IMG/VR virus record: IMGVR_UViG_3300010430_000459
Span: 1 to 23,627 of that record
Source: a virus
Reading direction: 5' to 3' (one strand)
Length of the DNA: 23,627 nt
The notes beneath the pieces were generated by a model. It saw only the letters and a program-made list of their open reading frames with translations. It did no database searches and was not told where the DNA came from. The position numbers and the translations under genes were made by a program. Position 1 is the first letter of the stretch. Every line of letters begins with the position of its first letter. Shown piece after piece: positions 1,973 to 20,223 of this stretch.

Positions 1973-2278
1973 ATGGCGGCAACAGTAGCAGCTAAGAATA
2001 GAAAGGTACGGCAGGAGGCGTTACGCGACTTCCTAGCAAATCAGAAGCTTGTTGAGAAAGTTATTGATAATGCTAGAAAAATGGAGGAGCAGGGTGCGTC
2101 TATGGAGGCACAGGAGCTTAACGGGCTAAAGTATGCAACAGACACAAGATTGAAGCTTGTTTCAAAGTACCTGCCAGACTTAAAAGCAATGGAGCTTACC
2201 GGCGATGGTGGTGGTGAAATTGGTATAGATCAGTTACTAACAGTGGAGTTTGTCGGTATTGAAAATAAAACTGCCTGA
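1973..2278 (+). CDS. Terminase small subunit (putative)
   Basis: A 101-residue, largely helical charged protein directly upstream of and overlapping the large terminase, the normal place for the DNA-recognition subunit of the packaging motor. Its C-terminal part contains a KYLPDLKAMELTGDGGGE segment (residues 63-80). That resembles the ending of many phage small terminase proteins, where a helix is followed by a short Gly/Asp-rich linker. P22 gp3 is longer (about 160 residues), so this is a compact type. The ATG is preceded by GGGGTAAGGG (1961-1970), a strong ribosome site. The 3' end overlaps the large subunit by 29 bases. Assignment rests on context plus that C-terminal motif. Confidence 0.72.
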   Translation: MAATVAAKNRKVRQEALRDFLANQKLVEKVIDNARKMEEQGASMEAQELNGLKYATDTRLKLVSKYLPDLKAMELTGDGGGEIGIDQLLTVEFVGIENKTA

Positions 2279-3644
2279 TAGGTTTCAGCCGCTATTTAAG
2301 CCAAAGCGCATTAAAGTGTTTTTTGGTGGTAGAGGTGGAGCTAAAACTGAGAGTTTTATACGAGCCGCTTTAGTCCTAGCAATACGGGACGGAAAGCGGT
2401 TTCTCTGTTTACGCGAATTTATGAACTCTATCGATGACTCGGTGCATGCTGCTATCAAGGGGATTATTGCCAGCGATGGCTTTCAAGGATTCACAGAGCT
2501 AGAGAAGCGGATTGATGGCCCTAATGGTTCAGGCTTCAAGTATGGGCAGCTGGCTAGAAACTTATCGAGCATTAAATCAAAGTTTGATTTTGATGTTGCC
2601 TGGGTTGAGGAGGCTGAGACAATAACAGCTGAGTCTATTGAGACGTTAGAGCCGACAATAAGAAAAGATGGGTCGGAGTTGTGGTATAGCTTTAATCCAG
2701 CCAGAGAAGATGGCGCGGTCTATACAAAGTATGTTTTGCCATACATTGATGAGATTAATCGCACCGGCTTTTATGAGGATGGCGATGTATATGTTTGCAA
2801 GATAGGTATTGAGCATAACCCTTGGGCGCCTGAAAGCCTGTTAAGGGCTGCTGAGAAGATGAAAGCCGAGAACTATGATCTATGGTGCCATGTGTGGGAC
2901 GGACAGCCTAGGCGCGACCTAGATGACGTTATCATTCAACCCAAATGGATTGATGCGGCCATTGATGCTCACAAAACATTAGGATGGCAAGGTGTTGGTG
3001 TGAAGTCGCTAGGCTTTGACCCTGCTGATGCTGGTAGTGATGCAAAAGCTATCGCTATTCGGCATGGTTCGCTGATAACAGAGGCTAAGAGCTGGACAAC
3101 AGGTGATATAACCAGCGCAATACCTAGAGCTTTTGACGCTGCTGAACAGGTTAGAGCGACACATATTGTGTTTGATGCTGATGGCTTAGGTGCTGCGGTA
3201 AAGGTCGGCCTAGATCAACGTGTTGGTAGTGACATGGATATAACGGCTTATCATGGCGGCGCATCTGTTGACTACCCAGCAGAGTTATACGAAGGCAACC
3301 GAAGCAACAAAGATACATTTAAGAATAAACGCGCCCAGTATTATTGGTTCTTAGCTGACAGGTTCCGAAAGACTTATGATGCGGTTGTTAATGGCGTCTA
3401 TTGTGACCCTGACCAGCTTATTAGTATTAGCTCAGACATAGGTGAAGTCAGGCAAATTAAAGCCGAGCTATCCAGAGTGTTAAGAAAGCGCACTAATAAC
3501 AGTCAAATACAGCTAGAATCTAAGCCCGACATGGCTAAACGTGGTGTAAAATCACCTAACTTAGCAGATGCTATTGTTATGTGTTTTGCTAATCCGCCAC
3601 CCAAAACAGTACACAAAAAACAAGAGTTTGCAGCGTTATGGTAG
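2250..3644 (+). CDS. Terminase large subunit (ATPase and nuclease)
   Basis: A 464-residue packaging motor subunit that pumps DNA into the procapsid through the portal and cuts the concatemer. The N-terminal ATPase has a Walker A motif GGRGGAKT (residues 26-33), a Walker B strand DVAWVEE (115-121) and a YSFNP coupling motif (146-150). The C-terminal RNase H-like nuclease shows the expected acidic residues: D257 in FDPAD, D309 in IVFDADG and D440 in NLADA. The architecture fits the Terminase_3 / PBSX-like group. The start is a TTG at 2250 with a GTGGAG purine run just upstream; a second in-frame TTG lies at 2259. The gene overlaps the small subunit by 29 bases and the portal by 7, so translation is probably coupled. 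Confidence 0.95.
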   Translation: MSVLKIKLPDRFQPLFKPKRIKVFFGGRGGAKTESFIRAALVLAIRDGKRFLCLREFMNSIDDSVHAAIKGIIASDGFQGFTELEKRIDGPNGSGFKYGQLARNLSSIKSKFDFDVAWVEEAETITAESIETLEPTIRKDGSELWYSFNPAREDGAVYTKYVLPYIDEINRTGFYEDGDVYVCKIGIEHNPWAPESLLRAAEKMKAENYDLWCHVWDGQPRRDLDDVIIQPKWIDAAIDAHKTLGWQGVGVKSLGFDPADAGSDAKAIAIRHGSLITEAKSWTTGDITSAIPRAFDAAEQVRATHIVFDADGLGAAVKVGLDQRVGSDMDITAYHGGASVDYPAELYEGNRSNKDTFKNKRAQYYWFLADRFRKTYDAVVNGVYCDPDQLISISSDIGEVRQIKAELSRVLRKRTNNSQIQLESKPDMAKRGVKSPNLADAIVMCFANPPPKTVHKKQEFAALW

Positions 3645-5797
3645 ATAACACAGATTACAGCGAAGTCAGTAAACGCCTGTCAATGGCACAAGATGCCGAT
3701 TCTGATATGCGCGACCAGGTATGTGAGACTGACAAGTTTCTCAATGTCAGGGATGGGCAATGGGACACAGGAAACCTGCCTAACATCAATCTACCAAGGT
3801 TAACGCTAGATAAATGCAATCCTATTGTTGATTCTATCGCCTCGCAGATTGAAGAAAATGAATATGCTATACACGTTAAACCTGCTGACGGTGCAAGCAA
3901 CAAGGATGTGGCCAATATTTACAATGGTTTAATACGCAATATCGAGAATGTTAGCAACGCGGTACAAATCTATAACGCGGTATCACGCCGAACTATTGGC
4001 ACAGGCTTGTCAGGCTGTCGGGTTGTTCAGGATTACGTCAGTTCGGACTCATTTGACCAAGATTTGATTGTTAAACCTATCAATGACTTTGCAAATCGTG
4101 TGTGGTTTGGCCCTTATGAGCAGGCAGATGCCAGTGATGCGCCTTACGCTTGGGTGTTTACCGCAATGTCGCCAGATGCCTATGATGAGAAGTACCCAGA
4201 TGGCTCAGGCTTGTCATTGTCTCAAGACATTTGGAATGAGAATTGGTGGAATGCGCGTGAAGTTGTAATTATTGCCGAGTACATTTACAAGGTTTACGAG
4301 TCTGTCGAGCTTGTATTGATGACCGATGGCAAGGTTTACGAGGTAACAGAGGAGTTTGAATCTGTTACTGATGAGCTTGCACAACAGAACATTCAGGAGC
4401 GCAGCCGCAAAAGCAAGAAGGTTTGCCGCATCAAAACTAGAATGATGGACGGCAAGGGCTGGATAACTGGCGAGCAAGACACAGTATTCAAGGATATGCC
4501 GGTAATTCAATCGGCTGCTAACTTCCAAATCATTCAGAATAAGCCTGTTTATTGGGGAGCTATTGATAAGCTGCTAGACCAACAGCGCGTTTACAACTTT
4601 ACATCGTCAAAACAGTTGGCAGAAACAGCGTTAGCACCAACTGAAACAATTATGATGACTGACGATCAGGCGCTTGGTCAGGATTACTCACAACTTAACC
4701 AAAATCCTAAGCCAATAACCACTTATACGCACATGGATGGGCAGCAAACGCCTTATAAGATGGCTGGGCCATCAATTAACCAATCATTAGAGGTTATGAA
4801 GCAATCGGCGGCTAATGACATTGGTGCTAGTGCTGGTCAGTTTAACGCTCAAATGGGCAATAACGCGGGTTTACAGTCTGGTCGCGCCATTGGGATGCAA
4901 ATAGATAAAGGCGATGCAAGCAATCTGAAGTATGTACAGCAGCGAGAGGCTTTCATCTGCTCGGTTGCCAAGGTTATCGTCAACGCAATACCGGCGACCT
5001 ATGATTCAGAGCGTCAAATTCGCATAGTTGGCGAGGATGGCACAGAGGATATGGAGACTATCAACACAGCTGAGTATGACATTCAGACAGGCCAAATGGT
5101 TGAGCTTAATGATTTGTCGCAGGGTCAATACGATGTGACTTGTACAGCTCAAAAGTCATTTAAGAATAAGCAAGACCAAACAGCTTCCGCGTTTATGGAA
5201 TTGGCTCAGGTAATGCCTGGCATTATGGACGTGGGCGCAGATGTTTATATGAATAGCGTTGACGCTCCAGCTATGAAGATGATCGCTGAGCGTTACCGTG
5301 AACAAATGCTACCAACTGGTGTTATACCCCAATCGCAAATGAGTGATGAAGAGATACAGCAGATGCAAGCAGCCGCACAACAGCCTAAAGAACCGACCAT
5401 ACAAGAACAGCTAGGCCAAGCAGAACTTATGAAGGGTCAGGCTGAAATTGGTAAGGCGCAAGCACAGGCCGATAAGATTCAAGTTGAGGCGGCAAGTTTG
5501 CAGGCTAAAACTCAGCTAGAAGCACAGAAGCTAAACCAGTCAGGCCAGAAAATTGAGCTACAGGCAGATGAGCAAGCATTTAGACAGCAGCTTGATATAA
5601 ACCGACAGCTTACCGAGCGCATGAATATGATGGCCGATACCATGAATAAGTTGGTGGAGGCTACAGGCGCGGAGGGTATGGCGATGCCTTCGGCTATGCA
5701 AGCAGTCAATAATCAGGCTCAAATGATTACAGGCGAGCAGAATGATATGGGCGCTATGACTAATGAGCAGTTGATGGAGGTTGTGCGCAATGGATAA
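3638..5797 (+). CDS. P22-type portal protein
   Basis: A 719-residue homologue of P22 gp1 (725 residues), which forms the dodecameric ring at one capsid vertex through which DNA is packaged and ejected. The N-terminal part (SKRLSMAQDADSDMR, then a QWDTGNLPNINLPRLTLDKC-like region near residues 38-60) is characteristic of the P22 portal family. The central wing/stem region is followed by a C-terminal Gln/Ala-rich helical stretch, about residues 580-680. This corresponds to the long alpha-helical barrel that extends into the capsid in P22. The ATG lies 7 bases inside the terminase gene end. The gene ends 8 bases inside the next gene, which uses a GGAGG at 5776-5780 within the portal coding sequence. 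Confidence 0.93.
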   Translation: MVDNTDYSEVSKRLSMAQDADSDMRDQVCETDKFLNVRDGQWDTGNLPNINLPRLTLDKCNPIVDSIASQIEENEYAIHVKPADGASNKDVANIYNGLIRNIENVSNAVQIYNAVSRRTIGTGLSGCRVVQDYVSSDSFDQDLIVKPINDFANRVWFGPYEQADASDAPYAWVFTAMSPDAYDEKYPDGSGLSLSQDIWNENWWNAREVVIIAEYIYKVYESVELVLMTDGKVYEVTEEFESVTDELAQQNIQERSRKSKKVCRIKTRMMDGKGWITGEQDTVFKDMPVIQSAANFQIIQNKPVYWGAIDKLLDQQRVYNFTSSKQLAETALAPTETIMMTDDQALGQDYSQLNQNPKPITTYTHMDGQQTPYKMAGPSINQSLEVMKQSAANDIGASAGQFNAQMGNNAGLQSGRAIGMQIDKGDASNLKYVQQREAFICSVAKVIVNAIPATYDSERQIRIVGEDGTEDMETINTAEYDIQTGQMVELNDLSQGQYDVTCTAQKSFKNKQDQTASAFMELAQVMPGIMDVGADVYMNSVDAPAMKMIAERYREQMLPTGVIPQSQMSDEEIQQMQAAAQQPKEPTIQEQLGQAELMKGQAEIGKAQAQADKIQVEAASLQAKTQLEAQKLNQSGQKIELQADEQAFRQQLDINRQLTERMNMMADTMNKLVEATGAEGMAMPSAMQAVNNQAQMITGEQNDMGAMTNEQLMEVVRNG

Positions 5798-7346
5798 AGC
5801 GCAAGCGGCCAACGAATTAAAGCGGCGCGGTGTAACCTTAGAGGATATGCAAAACTATTTTCTAGCGGTTGCCGAGCCTGTTGCAGCTATGGGTTCGGGC
5901 ATTGTTGCCGAGCCTTTAGCTGGATTTGCTGGTTTAGCTGCGACTCCTTTCGGTTCAGATGCGGCGGCTAACGCTGTTAATTATTACCGCGATAAGCTGA
6001 CCTACTCACCAAGGTCAGAGGCGGGTCAGTCTGGCATGGCTGCTGTTGGTGAGGCGATGGCCCCAATAGGTGAGGCAATGGATTATGCGGCTAGTGGTGC
6101 TGGTGATTACATCTACGACAAAACAGGAAGCCCGGCATTAGCGGCGGCAGCGTACTCAGCACCAACAGCAGCACTTGAGCTATTAGGTTTAAAAGGCGTT
6201 AATCAGTTAAGCAAATCAGGCAAGCTAGGCCAGCCGTTAGAGTTTGGCGACATAGGCAGCGGTGGAGTGGGCAACAAGCAACGCGGCATCTTTGCAGGCG
6301 TAAAGGCTAAGGGTGCAGATTTAAAGCGTCAGGCAGCAGCAGAGGAGCTTGCGGGTCGCGGTATTGGACGCGACCAAATATGGCAGGAAACAGGCTGGTT
6401 TAATGACGTTGATGGCAGTTGGAAGTTTGAGATTGATGATAGCCAGGCAAGACTTAGGTCGCTAGATGGCAGTTCTGATAGTCATATGGACTGGGTAGAT
6501 GAGGCAGAAAGCAGAGAGCGCGGCATTCCTTTATCGTCAGGTGTTGAGCACAGTGAGATGTTCAACAGCTACCCATCAATGCAGAAAGCTCGCCTAAGTA
6601 TTGGTCGAACTGGCGGCAGTCATGGTATGTATGACGCTCAAGCTGACACGGTTGGCATTAAGGATCCGTTTGATTACCCCCAAGGCGAGGCCAGATCAAC
6701 ACTACTTCACGAAACGCAACACGCTATACAAGAGCGGGAGGGGTTTGCCAAAGGTGGTAGCGCGAGTGAGTTTGAAGTTGATATGCAGGCTTATGCCGAA
6801 CTTAACAAGATGGGCTTTGCTGAAATGGATGGATTCCAAAAGCAAATGTTTAAAGACTTGAGAGGTAAGTACGGCAAAAATAGGTCGGCCTTTGATTTTT
6901 ATGAGCGCCTAGCAGGTGAAGCCGAAGCCCGCAATGTACAAACCCGCATGGACTACACACCAGAACAGCGCCGAGCAGCAGCACCTTGGACAACGCTAGA
7001 TGTGCCAGAGGGTGAGCTTATTGTAAGAGGTAACAGCAAGGGGCCGATGATGAGTTCGGGTAATGATATTAAAAGCGCCATAAGGGAGAGTGAGGGGGCT
7101 ATAACATTGGATAAAGTTATTGTTCCTGAGTCTGTCAGAGATAAAGGGCTGGGCACTAAGTTTATGAAGGACTTGATAGGTCGAGCCGACCAAAGCGGCA
7201 AGAGGATTGAGCTAACACCAAGCGCTGATTTTGGCGGCAATAAAAACAGGCTGGTTAAGTTTTATAAGAGGCTTGGTTTTGTAGAGAATAAAGGGAAAAA
7301 CAGGGATTACGAGATAAGCGAATCTATGTACAGGCTGCCTGAATAA
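5790..7346 (+). CDS. Polyvalent virion-associated protein: LPD23-like, HExxH metallopeptidase-like and GNAT domains
   Basis: A 518-residue multidomain protein inserted between portal and scaffold, where P22 has nothing. Residues 25-143 are Gly/Ala-rich with an MGSGIVAEPLAG start and a PTAALELLGLKG end, and this stretch is clearly similar to residues 68-187 of the ejection protein at 16755. Residues 188-217 (GRGIGRDQIWQETGWF, then DGSWKFEIDD) match the LPD23 domain of phage polyvalent proteins. Residues 303-323 contain HETQH (307-311), an HExxH zincin motif, with a possible third ligand in AGEAEAR (375-381). Residues 436-518 form a GNAT-like domain with R450-DKGLG and FYKRLGFV. I chose ATG 5790 because GGAGG at 5776-5780 gives 9-base spacing; an upstream TTG at 5781 has no room for a ribosome site. 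Injection into the host is inferred. Confidence 0.85.
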   Translation: MDKAQAANELKRRGVTLEDMQNYFLAVAEPVAAMGSGIVAEPLAGFAGLAATPFGSDAAANAVNYYRDKLTYSPRSEAGQSGMAAVGEAMAPIGEAMDYAASGAGDYIYDKTGSPALAAAAYSAPTAALELLGLKGVNQLSKSGKLGQPLEFGDIGSGGVGNKQRGIFAGVKAKGADLKRQAAAEELAGRGIGRDQIWQETGWFNDVDGSWKFEIDDSQARLRSLDGSSDSHMDWVDEAESRERGIPLSSGVEHSEMFNSYPSMQKARLSIGRTGGSHGMYDAQADTVGIKDPFDYPQGEARSTLLHETQHAIQEREGFAKGGSASEFEVDMQAYAELNKMGFAEMDGFQKQMFKDLRGKYGKNRSAFDFYERLAGEAEARNVQTRMDYTPEQRRAAAPWTTLDVPEGELIVRGNSKGPMMSSGNDIKSAIRESEGAITLDKVIVPESVRDKGLGTKFMKDLIGRADQSGKRIELTPSADFGGNKNRLVKFYKRLGFVENKGKNRDYEISESMYRLPE

Positions 7347-8312: not shown

Positions 8313-9569
8313 ATGACTGATACAACCAAGAACGTAACAACTAAAATCGCCAAGAAGATTCTGGCATCCTTTGAGAGCCAGCGTGTATTGTCCAAAAATG
8401 TCAATACTCAGATGCTAGACGGCAAGTTTAACCCTTCAACGGGTTCTAAGACTTTGTTTAAGCGTCCAACCGACTTTAGTTCTGTCCGTACCGCTACAGG
8501 TGATGTGACCGGCGTTAACAGCCCGATCATCGTGGGTAATGCCGAAGGTAATGTACAAGATTACATTACTGTCAAAACTGATTTTGATGAAGCTGTTGAG
8601 GCTTTGGAGTTTGACGGTGACGACAATTCATTCTGGGATAATATGGCGCGCCGTATTACCGTTGACCTAGAGAAAGATTTTGCTCAGTTTATGATGCGTA
8701 ATGCTGCATTGCAGGCTGGTACTGTCGGCACTCCTGTTTCCTCTTGGGATGCTATTGCCGAAGCTGGTGCGATTATGGAGTCTACCGGCGTACCAGCTGG
8801 TGAGCTATGTTATGGCGTTAACCCTTTCACTCAGCGTAAGCTGGCTGGTGATGTTCGTAGCTTAGGCGGCGAAACAGGCGCAATGACTGCAAACCAGAAG
8901 GCTGTTATCAGTGATAACTTTGCCGGTATGCGCGTAATGACTGCAAATACCTTGCCTCGCTATACCACTTCGGCTGGTGCAGATCGTGCTGGTACTTTGG
9001 TGACTAACCCGAATGTAACCTATGAAGCTGCCAAAGACAGTATGTATCAGACTTTGTCCGTTACTGGCTTTCAAGCTGATCTGGTTATTAAAGCTGGTGA
9101 GCGTATATCCATTGCAGGCCGCAACCGTCTTAACTTGTCTACACGCGACCCTATCCTAGATGACGAAGGCAATGTGGTGGTGTTTAGTGCCACTGTAACT
9201 GCTGACGTTACTCTTAACGGTTCTGGTGCTGGTAGTATTGTTATTACTGGCCCTGCAATCTTTGAATCCGCCGGTGCTTATAATACTGTTGATAGCGCGC
9301 CTATTGCCGGTGATGTTATTACCCTGTCGGCTGCTGAGTCTGTAATTATCCAGCCCAATATGTTCTGGCATAAAGATGCTTTCTCGATTGGTTCTGTACC
9401 AATGAAGCGTTTATTTAGTACTGATACCTTCGCTAAAACTAGCGACAACCTACAGTTGCGCGTCAGTAAATACTCAGATGGTGATGCAAACGGTCAGACT
9501 GTACGTGTTGATTTACGTCCAGCCTTTGCCGCTTTAAATCCTTTCTTCGCTGGTCATGGCCACGGCTAA
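8313..9569 (+). CDS. P22-type major coat protein
   Basis: A 418-residue homologue of P22 gp5 (430 residues), the HK97-fold major capsid protein. The N-terminal region, which runs into FKRPTDFSSVRTATGDVTG near residues 50-68, and the segment ITVKTDFDEAVEAL (88-101) are typical of the family. The middle region around residues 285-345 is a Thr/Val/Gly-rich beta section corresponding to the coat insertion or accessory domain. The C-terminus contains NMFWHKDAFSIGSVPM, the family's conserved ending strand region, and finishes with a short Gly/His tail (GHGHG). It follows the scaffold by 16 bases and is closed by a strong intrinsic terminator, consistent with very high expression. Codon use is pyrimidine-ending and smoother than that of its neighbours. 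Confidence 0.93.
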   Translation: MTDTTKNVTTKIAKKILASFESQRVLSKNVNTQMLDGKFNPSTGSKTLFKRPTDFSSVRTATGDVTGVNSPIIVGNAEGNVQDYITVKTDFDEAVEALEFDGDDNSFWDNMARRITVDLEKDFAQFMMRNAALQAGTVGTPVSSWDAIAEAGAIMESTGVPAGELCYGVNPFTQRKLAGDVRSLGGETGAMTANQKAVISDNFAGMRVMTANTLPRYTTSAGADRAGTLVTNPNVTYEAAKDSMYQTLSVTGFQADLVIKAGERISIAGRNRLNLSTRDPILDDEGNVVVFSATVTADVTLNGSGAGSIVITGPAIFESAGAYNTVDSAPIAGDVITLSAAESVIIQPNMFWHKDAFSIGSVPMKRLFSTDTFAKTSDNLQLRVSKYSDGDANGQTVRVDLRPAFAALNPFFAGHGHG

Positions 9570-9611: not shown

Positions 9612-9908
9612 ATGATTGATTGGGTTAAGAAAGACGGCAAAACAATCTCAACTAACGAATCGCAGGCATCAATTAAAACTGCTGAAAGTCTGGGCTGGTC
9701 GCGTAAACAGTCCAGGGTAGTTGAAACATTATTGGTGAAAGATGACAGCGCACACGAAACACAGATTGACCATTTAAAAAGTAAAGATGAAGTTGGTAAT
9801 TACATATTAAAAGCTTGCGGCGTTAAACTAGATTTACGCGGCAAGATTGAAACGGTTAAGCAGAAAGCTATCAAGGTGATTATGGAATGTCAACAACAGC
9901 AGAAGTAA
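9612..9908 (+). CDS. Hypothetical 98-residue protein after coat
   Basis: A small basic, soluble protein with an N-terminal DWVKKDGKTISTNE segment (residues 3-16) and a helical, Lys-rich C-terminal half. I do not recognise a family. Small proteins between coat and gp4-like genes in P22-type phages are often head-to-tail joining or decoration proteins, but this one shows no diagnostic motif. A GGGG followed by TAACTT (9602-9611) precedes the ATG. Its 3' end overlaps the next gene by 22 bases, implying coupled translation with the head completion protein. Confidence 0.65.
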   Translation: MIDWVKKDGKTISTNESQASIKTAESLGWSRKQSRVVETLLVKDDSAHETQIDHLKSKDEVGNYILKACGVKLDLRGKIETVKQKAIKVIMECQQQQK

Positions 9909-10966
9909 TTAAGCGAGCCTTATCATTAATACTTGTACAAGGCTCTGAGGCTCCAATAGAGCAAGATGAGGCTGGTAGCGCGGTAATTGCACTCAATAGA
10001 ATGATGGCAAGCTGGGAAGGCTCAGGGTTAGCTTTAGGCTACACTGCTGTTTCTAGCCTTGGTGACTTAATTACTGTGCCTGAATATGCGCTTGATGGTA
10101 TAGAGCAAAACTTGGCGCTGCGATTAGCCCCAGAATTTGAAGGTATGGTAAGCCCGTTATTGGTTCAAAACGCACGATTTGCAAAGCAAGACTTGGTTAA
10201 AGCAAACTTGACGGTCGCATCAACTAGCTATCCAGACATCATGCCAATGGGTTCAGGTAATACCGGCACAGGTCGCAATACATACGACGGCCCATTTTAC
10301 CCTTCTGGCGGCGGCATCCCAGGCGACAAGCCCGTTCCTCCCGTCCCTCCCGTTCCTCCCGTTCCTCCCGTCCCTCCCGTTCCTCCTGTTCCTCCTGTCA
10401 TATACGGCAAACTATCGCAAGCCAACACAAACACTGAAATATCCGTAAATTCAGAGGGGAAGCTGCTCACCCACATTGGCCCAATCTTTTGGCGGTCGGG
10501 GCTGTTGGGTGAGGGTATTCCCGACAATGATGCTCGCGGGTTCTATTGTGAATTTACCCCGGAGTCGGGTGCTGACGCCTTTGCTGTTGGGGTGTCAAAC
10601 TACCCTCAAGTATCAAAAGATACTTACTTAGGCGAAACTGTTAATGGTTTCGCATACCATTCATCAGCAGTAAAGTTTACAGGGGGGGTCTCTTCTCCTT
10701 ACGGGTCGGCCTACGATGTAGGTGATGTAATAGGTATCGCGTACAAGCAAGGCAAGGTCTGGTTCTCGCTTAATGGTGTATGGGCAACTGGTGCTGACCC
10801 TGCCACTGGTACTGGGGAGGCTTACGCAGGGATTACTGGAACAGTGTATGCCGGGGCATCCTTGCTATATCAAAATGGTACTTTGAGTGGCGAGTTTGGC
10901 CCAGACGATTTAGTTTATACGGCACCTGTAGGATTTGAGCAAGGATGGTTCATTGATTCGCCATAG
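9887..10966 (+). CDS. gp4-like head completion protein fused to a Pro-Pro-Val linker and a SPRY-like domain
   Basis: A 359-residue protein whose first 125 residues match the P22 gp4 family (tail accessory factor that seals the portal; P22 gp4 is 166 residues). Key stretches are EVIKRALSLILVQGSEAP (6-23) and LGYTAVSSLGDLITVP (50-65). After a Gly-rich segment come seven to eight Pro-Val-Pro units (149-171). The C-terminal domain (about 172-359) looks SPRY-like: a YDVGDVIGIAYKQGKVWFS core (276-294) is followed by LNGVW and a GITGTVYAGASL strand (315-326). In the family, SPRY modules are beta-sandwich interaction domains. I infer a gp4 body with a flexible arm carrying an exposed binding domain. 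The ATG overlaps the previous gene by 22 bases. Confidence 0.87.
   Translation: MSTTAEVIKRALSLILVQGSEAPIEQDEAGSAVIALNRMMASWEGSGLALGYTAVSSLGDLITVPEYALDGIEQNLALRLAPEFEGMVSPLLVQNARFAKQDLVKANLTVASTSYPDIMPMGSGNTGTGRNTYDGPFYPSGGGIPGDKPVPPVPPVPPVPPVPPVPPVPPVIYGKLSQANTNTEISVNSEGKLLTHIGPIFWRSGLLGEGIPDNDARGFYCEFTPESGADAFAVGVSNYPQVSKDTYLGETVNGFAYHSSAVKFTGGVSSPYGSAYDVGDVIGIAYKQGKVWFSLNGVWATGADPATGTGEAYAGITGTVYAGASLLYQNGTLSGEFGPDDLVYTAPVGFEQGWFIDSP
10331..10399 (+). repeat. 9-bp tandem repeat encoding (Pro-Val-Pro)n
   Basis: About 7.7 copies of CCCGTTCCT, with third-position C/T variants, lie in frame inside the gp4-like gene. All changes are synonymous, so the protein repeat is perfect while the DNA has drifted slightly. 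Copy number could change by slippage without breaking the frame. Confidence 0.95.
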
Positions 10967-11013
10967 TGTGACAAGGTTACTTGCCCCGTCATTTCTGAAA
11001 TAACTAACGAGAC

Positions 11014-11040
11014 ATAGCTATAACAAAAAAGCTATATACT
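11014..11040 (+). promoter_or_regulatory. Inverted repeat and -10-like element before the gp10-like gene
   Basis: ATAGCT (11014-11019) and AGCTAT (11030-11035) form an inverted repeat in the 103-base AT-rich gap. TATAAC (11019-11024) and TATACT (11035-11040) both resemble a -10 hexamer, but neither has a good -35. Only a weak case for a promoter can be made. Confidence 0.3.
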
Positions 11041-11069
11041 TTATTTTATCTGAAAGCTAAGGCTACATA

Positions 11070-12578: not shown

Positions 12579-12837
12579 TTTTATACTTGCATCCCCTGAT
12601 TTTAGATACCCAATAGTTGATGAGTCAGGCAAGGCAACGGAAGATTTACAGCGGTTTTTTGCTGCGGCTGTTGAGTTGATTAACGCCATAAACCCCACTA
12701 TTGGAGCGGGTAGCCCAGAAGGTGTATTATCAGCAGGGCCACAAGCAATCTACGTGGACAGTTCCGCGCCAGTTGGTGAGGGGATTTACATCAAACAGTC
12801 GGGGACAGGTAACACAGGATGGGTGAAGCGATCATAA
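12571..12837 (+). CDS. Small tail-associated protein with SPEGV...GNTGW motif
   Basis: An 88-residue protein that starts with TTG at 12571, with GGAG at 12556-12559 upstream, and overlaps gp10 by 8 bases. Residues 9-40 are helical. Residues 48-85 have the pattern GSPEGV...IYV...GIYIKQSGTGNTGW, which recurs in phage fibre- and tail-linked proteins as a short beta module. It occupies the position of the P22 needle gp26 (233 residues) but is much shorter and lacks the trimeric coiled-coil. It could be a reduced plug or an adaptor, but its function is unproven. Its 3' end overlaps the oxygenase gene by 19 bases. Confidence 0.75.
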   Translation: MANFILASPDFRYPIVDESGKATEDLQRFFAAAVELINAINPTIGAGSPEGVLSAGPQAIYVDSSAPVGEGIYIKQSGTGNTGWVKRS

Positions 12838-13394
12838 TTGACGACTTTATAGGCGGGTTTGAGGCTTATAGAGACACACTTGATAGTCATATCTTTAGCG
12901 GTGTACAGTCGCCTGTTGATGGCGTTTTTTATAAGGGTGTATCTGCTGATATACCGCAACACATAGCCGACAACATTAAAGCCAATCTTGATCTCTATTA
13001 TGAGAATGTGGAGATTAAGCATCAATTTTTACGCATCAGCCAAGAAGGTATATTTGCACCATTGCAGGCACATAACGATGCCGATATGGGTACGCATAGC
13101 TGCATGTTGTACCTTAATCGCAGAGAAGATTGCACCGGCGGCACAAGTTTTATCAGTCACGTTGATGAGGGTATGCCATACGGCCCTGAAAACGACGAAC
13201 AATATAAGGTTTGGCAGGATGATTTTAATACTGAGTCTCGCTGGAATATTGACGAAATTGCCACAATGAAACCCAACAGGGCGGTCATGTTTGATGCCGA
13301 CAGGATGCACAGGTCTGAGCCGGTTGGTGGTTTTGGACGCACAACAAAGGACGCCAGACTTGTTTTGGTGACGTTTTTCGATGCTGATTCGTAA
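12819..13394 (+). CDS. 2-oxoglutarate/Fe(II)-dependent oxygenase-like protein
   Basis: A 191-residue protein with the double-stranded beta-helix signature of Fe(II)/2-oxoglutarate oxygenases. H85-N-D87 in PLQAHNDADMG is the HxD metal pair, H164 in FDADRMHRSEP is the distal histidine, and R174 or R180 (in ARLVLVTFF) can bind 2-oxoglutarate. GGTSFI (107-112) fits the strand after the first pair, as in prolyl-hydroxylase-like members. Such enzymes hydroxylate proteins, nucleic acids or small molecules; the substrate here is unknown. The ATG sits about 9 bases after AGG at 12807. The gene overlaps its neighbours by 19 and 14 bases, so it is expressed with tail genes and a GNAT enzyme. Confidence 0.87.
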   Translation: MGEAIIIDDFIGGFEAYRDTLDSHIFSGVQSPVDGVFYKGVSADIPQHIADNIKANLDLYYENVEIKHQFLRISQEGIFAPLQAHNDADMGTHSCMLYLNRREDCTGGTSFISHVDEGMPYGPENDEQYKVWQDDFNTESRWNIDEIATMKPNRAVMFDADRMHRSEPVGGFGRTTKDARLVLVTFFDADS

Positions 13395-18921: not shown

Positions 18922-20223
18922 ATGTCCAGATTTATAAACCCAGTGCCACAATACCTTAACAGCGCAGGCGACCCAATAGTTTCGGGTCAAATGTTTTTCT
19001 ATGAAGTTGGCTCAACTACGCCGAAAGATGTATATCTTGATGCTGCTTTGACTATCCCAGCCGCAAACCCTGTATTACTCAACGCTGATGGCCGTATGCC
19101 GGACACTTATCTGCTTGGCTCATATCGCACCATACTAAGCGAGCCGTCCAGTGGTGAACAATGGGAGCGGGATAATGTGGGTTCAGAGTTTACAGATGGT
19201 TATGGCTCAGAATGGAATAGTACAGTCACATATAATATACCTGATGTAGTTTTGTTTGATGGTGTTTATTATGTATGCCAAACAAACAACAATGTTAATA
19301 ATCAGCCAAGCTCTACGTCTAGTGAGTGGAGCGTTTCAAATCTTGGCGCTATTGGCTCGAACCTGATAGATAACGCACAATTTAAGGTTAGGCAGCGCGG
19401 CAATAATGACGGAGGGGCCGGACTTGGCGGTGTATTTATCGACAGATGGATTACACGACCACTAAGTCAAACAGGCGGCGCAACACAGATAAGTGTTCCT
19501 ACTATTGGAAATTTTCCTGTTGATTATATGCGTGTTGCGGTGTCAGGCCACACGTCATTTTGGTATATAAGGCAGAATTTTTTAACGGATAAAATACAGA
19601 CAGGAAAAGATTACACTTACGCCGTAAAAACTAATTTAATGTCCTCAGCAATAAAAATGAGGGCTAGATTAAGGGGTCGCAGTATAAGCGCAGGAGTATT
19701 TTATACACTGGGCGAGTCTGATATTCAGCTTGATTCTTATGGGCAGTACACCGTTACATTTAAAAATGTAGTATCGCCCGCACCACTCACAGCAGAAGAT
19801 GATTATATACAGATAGAACTTTCAGGACAGCAAGCAGACGGAGGCGCTGATTTTGTTCTGCCTGATGGCTCTTACAGGTTTGAGAGTTTTAAACTAGAAG
19901 AAGGCAATAGTTTTACTGGTAACACTCCATCAGCTTATTCTAGTGATGAGCTTGAATGCAGAAAATGGTATAGAGGCATAGATAGTGAATTTGTCGCGAC
20001 TGTTGCAAGTGCTTCAGCAACAACAGCAACAAGGAGAACAAATTTGTTTTTTGACCCCCCAATGTATTTCCCGCCCACAGTAACAATAGGCTCGATAACT
20101 AACGGGGCGCTTTCATCCATCAGCACAACAAGTAAGAATGGGTGCTATGTAACAATAACAGCCTCAAGCTCAAGTGATAACGTTTTTGTTGATGGCTATA
20201 CAGCAACTTGCGAGATTTTGTAA
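18922..20223 (+). CDS. Tail fibre / receptor-binding protein
   Basis: A 433-residue fibre. Residues 1-88 (SRFINPVPQYLNSAGDP, GQMFFYEVGSTTPKDVYLD, NPVLLNADGRMPD) are the conserved podovirus tailspike/fibre head-binding domain that docks to the tail hub. Residues 98-138 (W...Y...DVVLFDGVYYVCQ...W) resemble a small type 5/12 carbohydrate-binding module. Residues about 148-340, beginning NLIDNAQFKVRQRG, are a jelly-roll module found in phage fibres. The end contains ELECRKWYRG (343-352), a common motif before the fibre tip. No hydrolase site is visible, so it probably binds rather than cuts the receptor. AAGGA at 18909-18913 precedes the ATG. Confidence 0.88.
   Translation: MSRFINPVPQYLNSAGDPIVSGQMFFYEVGSTTPKDVYLDAALTIPAANPVLLNADGRMPDTYLLGSYRTILSEPSSGEQWERDNVGSEFTDGYGSEWNSTVTYNIPDVVLFDGVYYVCQTNNNVNNQPSSTSSEWSVSNLGAIGSNLIDNAQFKVRQRGNNDGGAGLGGVFIDRWITRPLSQTGGATQISVPTIGNFPVDYMRVAVSGHTSFWYIRQNFLTDKIQTGKDYTYAVKTNLMSSAIKMRARLRGRSISAGVFYTLGESDIQLDSYGQYTVTFKNVVSPAPLTAEDDYIQIELSGQQADGGADFVLPDGSYRFESFKLEEGNSFTGNTPSAYSSDELECRKWYRGIDSEFVATVASASATTATRRTNLFFDPPMYFPPTVTIGSITNGALSSISTTSKNGCYVTITASSSSDNVFVDGYTATCEIL

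Follow-up and report, generated by a model that had tools for sequence, protein, structure and literature searches.

A P22 gp4-like head-tail adaptor with a SPRY domain on a polyproline linker, and the gp4 C-terminus as a possible mounting point for binding modules

In a 23,627-nucleotide stretch of viral DNA (the window; IMG/VR record IMGVR_UViG_3300010430_000459, positions 1 to 23,627) we found a gene whose product joins a head-tail adaptor of the P22 gp4 type, a polyproline linker and a SPRY domain. The identity of these three parts is practically certain. Comparison with relatives suggests that the head-tail joint is a site at which binding domains are mounted and can be swapped. The best explanation overall, to which we assign a probability of roughly 0.5, is that the C-terminus of gp4 serves as a mounting point for binding modules that replace a separate collar appendage. 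The features of the region are as follows:

9887..10966, + strand: entire gene for gp4 head-tail adaptor, polyproline linker and SPRY domain, 359 aa (open reading frame and translation)
9887..10282, + strand: gp4 helical core, residues 1-132 (PF11650, PHROG 637)
10229..10303, + strand: conserved C-terminal arm of gp4, residues 115-139, YPDIMPMGSGN...FYP (alignment with relatives; PMC5290284)
10304..10330, + strand: Gly-rich hinge SGGGIPGDK, residues 140-148 (translation)
10331..10399, + strand: linker, seven exact PVP units and PV, residues 149-171, encoded by a 9-bp tandem repeat (translation and DNA)
10400..10963, + strand: SPRY domain (B30.2 type, concanavalin-like beta sandwich), residues 172-359, with the profile match at 219-352 (profile, model and fold match)
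10967..11069, no strand: 103-bp gap between the gp4-SPRY gene and gp10, where most relatives have a fibre-like gene of ~280-550 aa
11070..12578, + strand: gp10-type head closure protein, Hc3 (PF11134, E 4e-9; PHROG 578, E 5e-101)

The gene is a single ORF running from ATG to TAG in a locus arranged in P22 order: terminase (2250-3644, taken from the ORF list), portal (3638-5797), a scaffold region and a P22-type coat protein (8313-9569) are followed by a small ORF, gp4 and then gp10/Hc3. Its location between the genes for the major capsid protein and gp10 is that expected of P22 gp4, whose partner in P22 is gp10. The 23.6-kb record is probably a fragment, and the phage is known from metagenomes only. 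The same metagenome contains a second contig with 99.76% identity across 4992 bp; it retains both the gene and the linker length, with three differences in the gene, all of them synonymous. An assembly accident is therefore unlikely. In two viral scans with the single protein, this near-identical contig was the sole match.

Several other window genes were observed. Upstream of the terminase region (7-1184) are two ORFs of 158 and 230 aa that resemble small virion appendage proteins and have no match in Pfam, PHROG or the fetched gp4 loci. The portal-scaffold interval (5781-7346) encodes a polyvalent-looking protein of 521 aa with an LPD23 domain, a metallopeptidase-like stretch and a GNAT-like C-terminus.

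The N-terminal part of the protein belongs to the gp4 family by several criteria. Residues 20-132 matched PF11650 (E 1.5e-7, 32.1 bits against a gathering cut-off of 21), residues 1-133 matched PHROG 637, 'head-tail adaptor Ad3' (E 2e-23), and the P22 gp4 chains in the PDB matched the protein with an E value of 4e-7. The helical core is followed by the arm motif P...(M/L)P.GSGN...F(Y/F)P (residues ~115-139). In an alignment with 13 relatives the arm is 34-44% identical, and the P, G, S, G and N of the motif are invariant across all 14 sequences. When diverse gp4 sequences were aligned, no segment was sufficiently conserved for a scan. An earlier sequence-only reading had described the first 125 residues as gp4-like; the homology holds, but the boundary does not, since the PF11650 match reaches residue 132 and the arm residue 139. 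The linker begins just past the retained arm, after the Gly-rich hinge. P22 has 12 copies of gp4, and the protein's extended C-terminal tail inserts between portal subunits (PMC5290284); the arm is conserved here at the level of sequence, and portal insertion is known from P22 only (PMC5290284).

The same reading had noted a perfect Pro-Val-Pro repeat, and this was borne out: the linker (KPVPPVPPVPPVPPVPPVPPVPPV, residues 149-171) consists of PVP repeated exactly seven times and one PV, and its DNA is a series of 9-bp units that are nearly identical. If fully in the polyproline-II conformation, its ~23 residues would span ~7 nm (our estimate, assuming 3.1 A for each residue). Slippage can lengthen or shorten a repeat of this kind while keeping the frame, but its length is identical in both contigs. 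There is no in-frame ATG from residue 121 to the end of the gene, and thus it is unlikely that the SPRY part is made on its own. We also scanned DNA for PVPPVPPVP, which yielded at least 120 stretches. Among the loci listed, only ORFs identical to that of the window had a short-type gp4, and among the matches listed none matched the window SPRY domain. The sole gp4-like ORF in a PVP locus among the matches listed (L139) was of the long type, without the repeat. Downstream, in the tail gene cluster (12819-13394), is a 2OG-Fe(II) oxygenase-like protein whose match to PF13640 (E 4e-5) is just under the cut-off. A role for it as a prolyl-hydroxylase acting on the polyproline arm was rejected, because relatives without polyproline carry the same oxygenase.

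The C-terminal domain, previously called SPRY-like, proved to be a true SPRY domain by profile, predicted model and fold match. The Pfam SPRY model (PF00622) had no direct match to the window protein, which is a divergent exception: the model matched 57 of the 58 aligned members. A leave-one-out HMM built from the 57 viral SPRY domains matched residues 219-352 with 110 bits (E 1.2e-31), whereas the highest score among 2000 shuffles was 13 bits. By tblastn, the C-terminal part matched gp16 of Methylophilales phage MEP301 (E 8e-5) in a segment that is itself a PF00622 SPRY domain (E 3e-21); the two domains are 31% identical over 144 columns (BLASTP E 5e-11), with an hhalign probability of 96.5. 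A viral scan with a three-member SPRY profile gave 191 relatives. With the alignment of viral SPRY domains, AlphaFold2 modelled the domain as a SPRY beta-sandwich (pLDDT 91, pTM 0.89), and a fold unrelated to SPRY was not obtained; the single-sequence AlphaFold2 model of the whole protein (pLDDT 34) was of no use. Using the predicted model as query, Foldseek matched the SPRY domain of Ash2L (E 1e-12), which VIA-align superimposed with Z 26.4 and 1.6 A over 169 residues, and SPRY domains occurred throughout the Foldseek and VIA-align matches. Fold matches among viral models include a tail fibre protein and phage B30.2/SPRY proteins.

The protein belongs to two established families, gp4 and the phage SPRY domains; the parts are known, the arrangement is new. 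Our literature search, which covered few subscription journals, found no published account of a gp4-SPRY fusion or of the gp4 C-terminus as an exchange point. P22 gp4 shares the helical core, the C-terminal arm motif and the gene order coat, small ORF, gp4, gp10. However, it ends at 166 aa and, as had been pointed out, has no such extension, whereas the window chain is ~220 residues longer (linker and SPRY). Pseudoalteromonas phage H6/1 is the closest cultured relative by both gp4 (tblastn) and gp10. Its gp12 is a gp4 with 33% identity over residues 1-125 and its gp13 is a gp10 (~37-40%) in the same order, but gp12 has 148 aa and no extension, and gp10 is directly next. In phage DEV, gp83 is likewise a gp4-like head-tail adaptor and has an additional, outward-facing beta domain; however, this domain is inserted between helices 2 and 3 and is not on the C-terminal arm (PMC10925440). 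Homologous SPRY domains are found in MEP301 gp16 and pelagiphage HTVC022P gp41, which are large tail or virion structural proteins and not gp4, and other phage SPRY domains are located in proteins of this kind as well. Fusion to gp4 was not seen in any of 85 further viral SPRY ORFs that we inspected.

By analogy with P22, the gp4 part would assemble as twelve copies on the portal, and each C-terminus would carry its SPRY domain outward on a stiff linker, so that about twelve binding heads would encircle the head-tail joint. Display of the SPRY domains at the collar is likely, and about twelve arms around it, as the sequence-only reading had proposed, can fairly be inferred from the 12 copies of P22 gp4 and the arm kept before the linker.

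We surveyed the C-termini of gp4 in relatives, drawing on viral-contig scans with gp10 and gp4 profiles, a genome-contig scan and phage records. The set comprised 287 loci with 161 distinct gp4 domains and was based on the best 80 of about 400 matches per scan, so its counts are samples and not censuses. Within this sample of the best 80 of about 400 matches per scan, the number of residues after the GSGN motif was sharply bimodal: at most 40 in 148 of the 161 domains and 109-347 in eight, the other five being gp4 domains without a clear arm motif. The sequence-only reading had proposed a search for gp4 homologues with other C-terminal domains, and such homologues were found. The eight extended proteins represent five architectures in the same sample (best 80 of about 400 per scan), in which the window phage is the only lineage with SPRY; the other four are non-SPRY. 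Vibrio phage 234P9 and L159, L274, L275, L152 and L188 resemble the window in having a short-type gp4 with an extra domain past the arm, but this domain is Ig-like or Gp77-like, PKD-DUF285 or a fibre head. PKD and DUF285 are found in L152/L208 (DUF285, E 2e-24). Four contigs (L159/L272-L275) have an Ig-like extension of the type of PF23148, 'Podophage GP4 fiber-tail adaptor protein gp77'; L159 scores 27.1 bits (E 6e-6) against a cut-off of 27, and the Gp77 assignment is therefore borderline. The isolate Vibrio phage 234P9 (L017) has another extension, Ig-like as read from its sequence, with Gp77 reaching E 0.04 only. The L188/L351 extension shares homology with the head of a fibre-like protein that other phages encode separately; for L188, phmmer aligned it with the C-terminal head of the fibre at 1e-26. 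Neither the L159 Gp77-like domain nor the fibre head domain matched solved structures (the latter, none above chance), which is no evidence of a new fold.

The gene arrangement in two of these loci was also recorded. In L188 (4001-4834), gp4 is joined to the TNF-like head of a fibre that is separately encoded in relatives, and gp10 follows 33 bp later. In L152 (144-1865), gp4 with PKD and DUF285 repeats is followed by a 100-aa remnant of the fibre N-terminal region and then gp10.

This variety bears on what the extension does. It is possible that it is a structural add-on, for portal vertex stability or assembly, or that it is proteolysed and has no role in the virion. The proline-rich linker could be a target for cleavage, and the PKD and DUF285 repeats of L152 have no obvious receptor-binding role. 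However, the differences in the SPRY frame between the two contigs, although only three, are all synonymous, and the use of a single site by five unrelated kinds of domain, a fibre head and SPRY among them, argues for exchangeable recognition modules and not for one structural role. We thus regard a structural or cleaved extension as unlikely. Ig-like and lectin domains on phage heads have been proposed to stick to non-host surfaces. Since some of the alternative domains at this site are Ig-like or lectin-like, the ring could also attach virions to particles, mucus, extracellular polymers or other non-host surfaces, raising the encounter rate without binding a receptor. A place beside the tail is better suited to host contact than decoration of the whole capsid would be, and we consider attachment to non-host surfaces quite improbable.

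In most relatives, the interval between gp4 and gp10 is occupied. Among the sampled loci with a short gp4 and the next genes in view, a fibre-like gene precedes gp10 in 126 of 141 and is absent from 15. The encoded proteins, mostly ~280-295 or 520-550 aa, consist of a conserved N-terminal region and a C-terminal head; relatives of the head carry a TNF-like annotation in Vibrio phage 1.077.O, whose copy of the gene is likewise adjacent to the head closure gene. Where gp10 is visible alongside an extended gp4, an intact fibre gene is never present: gp10 is directly next in six cases, and L152, the remaining case, retains a 100-aa stub of the fibre N-terminus. In the window, phmmer with both parts of the fibre-like protein (PHROG 16509; TNF-like head) gave no match in any ORF at E values up to 10. 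The counts point to mutual exclusion; a Fisher test of extension against fibre gene, in which kinship is ignored, gave 2e-7, or 3e-5 when the stub was counted as a fibre.

We further examined the distribution in a gp10 tree of 70 rows, from which Vibrio phage 234P9 was left out. The four extended architectures in the tree require four separate origins, imposed by well supported branches, and the window is placed beside the fibre-bearing L252 (53% gp10 identity) and a phage with neither fibre nor extension. The tree provides only four independent pairs for the exclusivity of extension and fibre, and the exclusion is therefore unable to reach significance once kinship is considered; we do not claim that it is strict or necessary. 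Moreover, neither feature is present in 15 short-gp4 phages, so the exchange of one for the other is not strict and the appendage can be absent. With these limits, the SPRY ring would stand in for the separate fibre-like appendage of most relatives, a substitution that the comparison of loci makes somewhat probable.

Other arrangements of the interval were seen. In L154 (1591-3141) and L172 (1207-2663), the fibre-like gene appears as two overlapping ORFs with the head domain in an ORF of its own, which may reflect a frameshift, decay or a real split. L013 (Sphingopyxis phage VSN-002, 1028-2494) has a long unannotated Gly-rich ORF of 488 aa directly before gp10, with gp4 further upstream; this is possibly another appendage in the gp4-gp10 interval. 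In L016 (Pseudomonas phage PfAn1, 3092-5228), the gp10 and minor tail protein genes past gp4 are inverted relative to the P22-type cluster.

The short gp4s themselves differ according to the presence of the fibre gene. In nearly all of those accompanied by it (L145-L428), the last 20-25 residues form a conserved tail, e.g. YPDLEAEILAETTGSIGLE. The pattern E..G.I.LE, which was chosen post hoc and counted with kinship ignored, occurs in 114 of 126 gp4s with a fibre gene and in none of 15 without one; a clade with CCED tails is an exception. This tail may be a docking peptide for the separate fibre.

These observations are relevant to the main alternative role, in which the SPRY ring is a docking platform that grips the base of the tail fibre or another phage protein of the collar, with no host contact. 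It was previously reported that gp4/tubeA is the tail protein where fibres attach (PMC10386132), and the head-tail adaptor of phage DEV supports a fibre collar and has an extra domain directed outward (PMC10925440). In addition, the C-terminal domain of four gp4 relatives scores at the 'fiber-tail adaptor' family PF23148, a borderline assignment in L159. However, a Pfam search found no match to Gp77 (PF23148) in the window protein, the module on gp4 in L188 is the distal head of a fibre and not its base, and the distribution of the E..G.I.LE tail, which the window protein does not have, hints that a peptide is enough for docking. We therefore consider docking a rather doubtful explanation. Known SPRY domains mostly bind proteins or peptides. 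Peptide binding would suit docking, and glycan binding by the window domain is for the same reason a guess.

Host contact is the other possibility. The SPRY heads would bind the host surface, either a glycan or a protein, and provide extra avidity or a first contact for the main tail fibre. It should be noted that the window encodes a 433-aa candidate tail fibre or spike (18922-20223), whose N-terminal region matches PHROG 26190 and which also has a CBM_5_12-like stretch and a region matching a tail fibre PHROG. Its product is probably the main receptor-binding protein, and that it could fill this role speaks against host binding by SPRY. Nevertheless, we favour host-surface binding because L188 has, in place of the fibre, that fibre's distal head as the module on gp4, because the alternative domains at this position are typical recognition domains, and because phage SPRY domains, which occur in tail fibres and virion components, are viewed as concanavalin-fold lectin domains (review, PMC7824862). 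Of the two uses raised by the sequence-only reading, these comparisons favour surface binding ahead of fibre docking, and we rate host-surface binding as the main function at about even odds.

The adaptors of podophages are usually viewed as a conserved connecting piece, with host recognition attributed to the tailspikes and fibres docked on them. A wider proposal, which we offer tentatively and with somewhat less than even confidence, is that a large P22-like metagenomic group has an exchangeable port at this site, into which recognition domains have been plugged independently, generating a twelve-subunit receptor-binding ring that replaces the collar fibre. If the adaptor C-terminus is an exchange site, the 'head completion protein' label would be hiding host-recognition proteins of many uncultured phages, and a likely role would emerge for the otherwise unassigned gene that most relatives have between gp4 and gp10. 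The arrangement would also offer a natural system for how a dodecameric hub presents receptor binders directly, and Vibrio phage 234P9 is a cultured phage with a comparable gp4 extension that is open to study.
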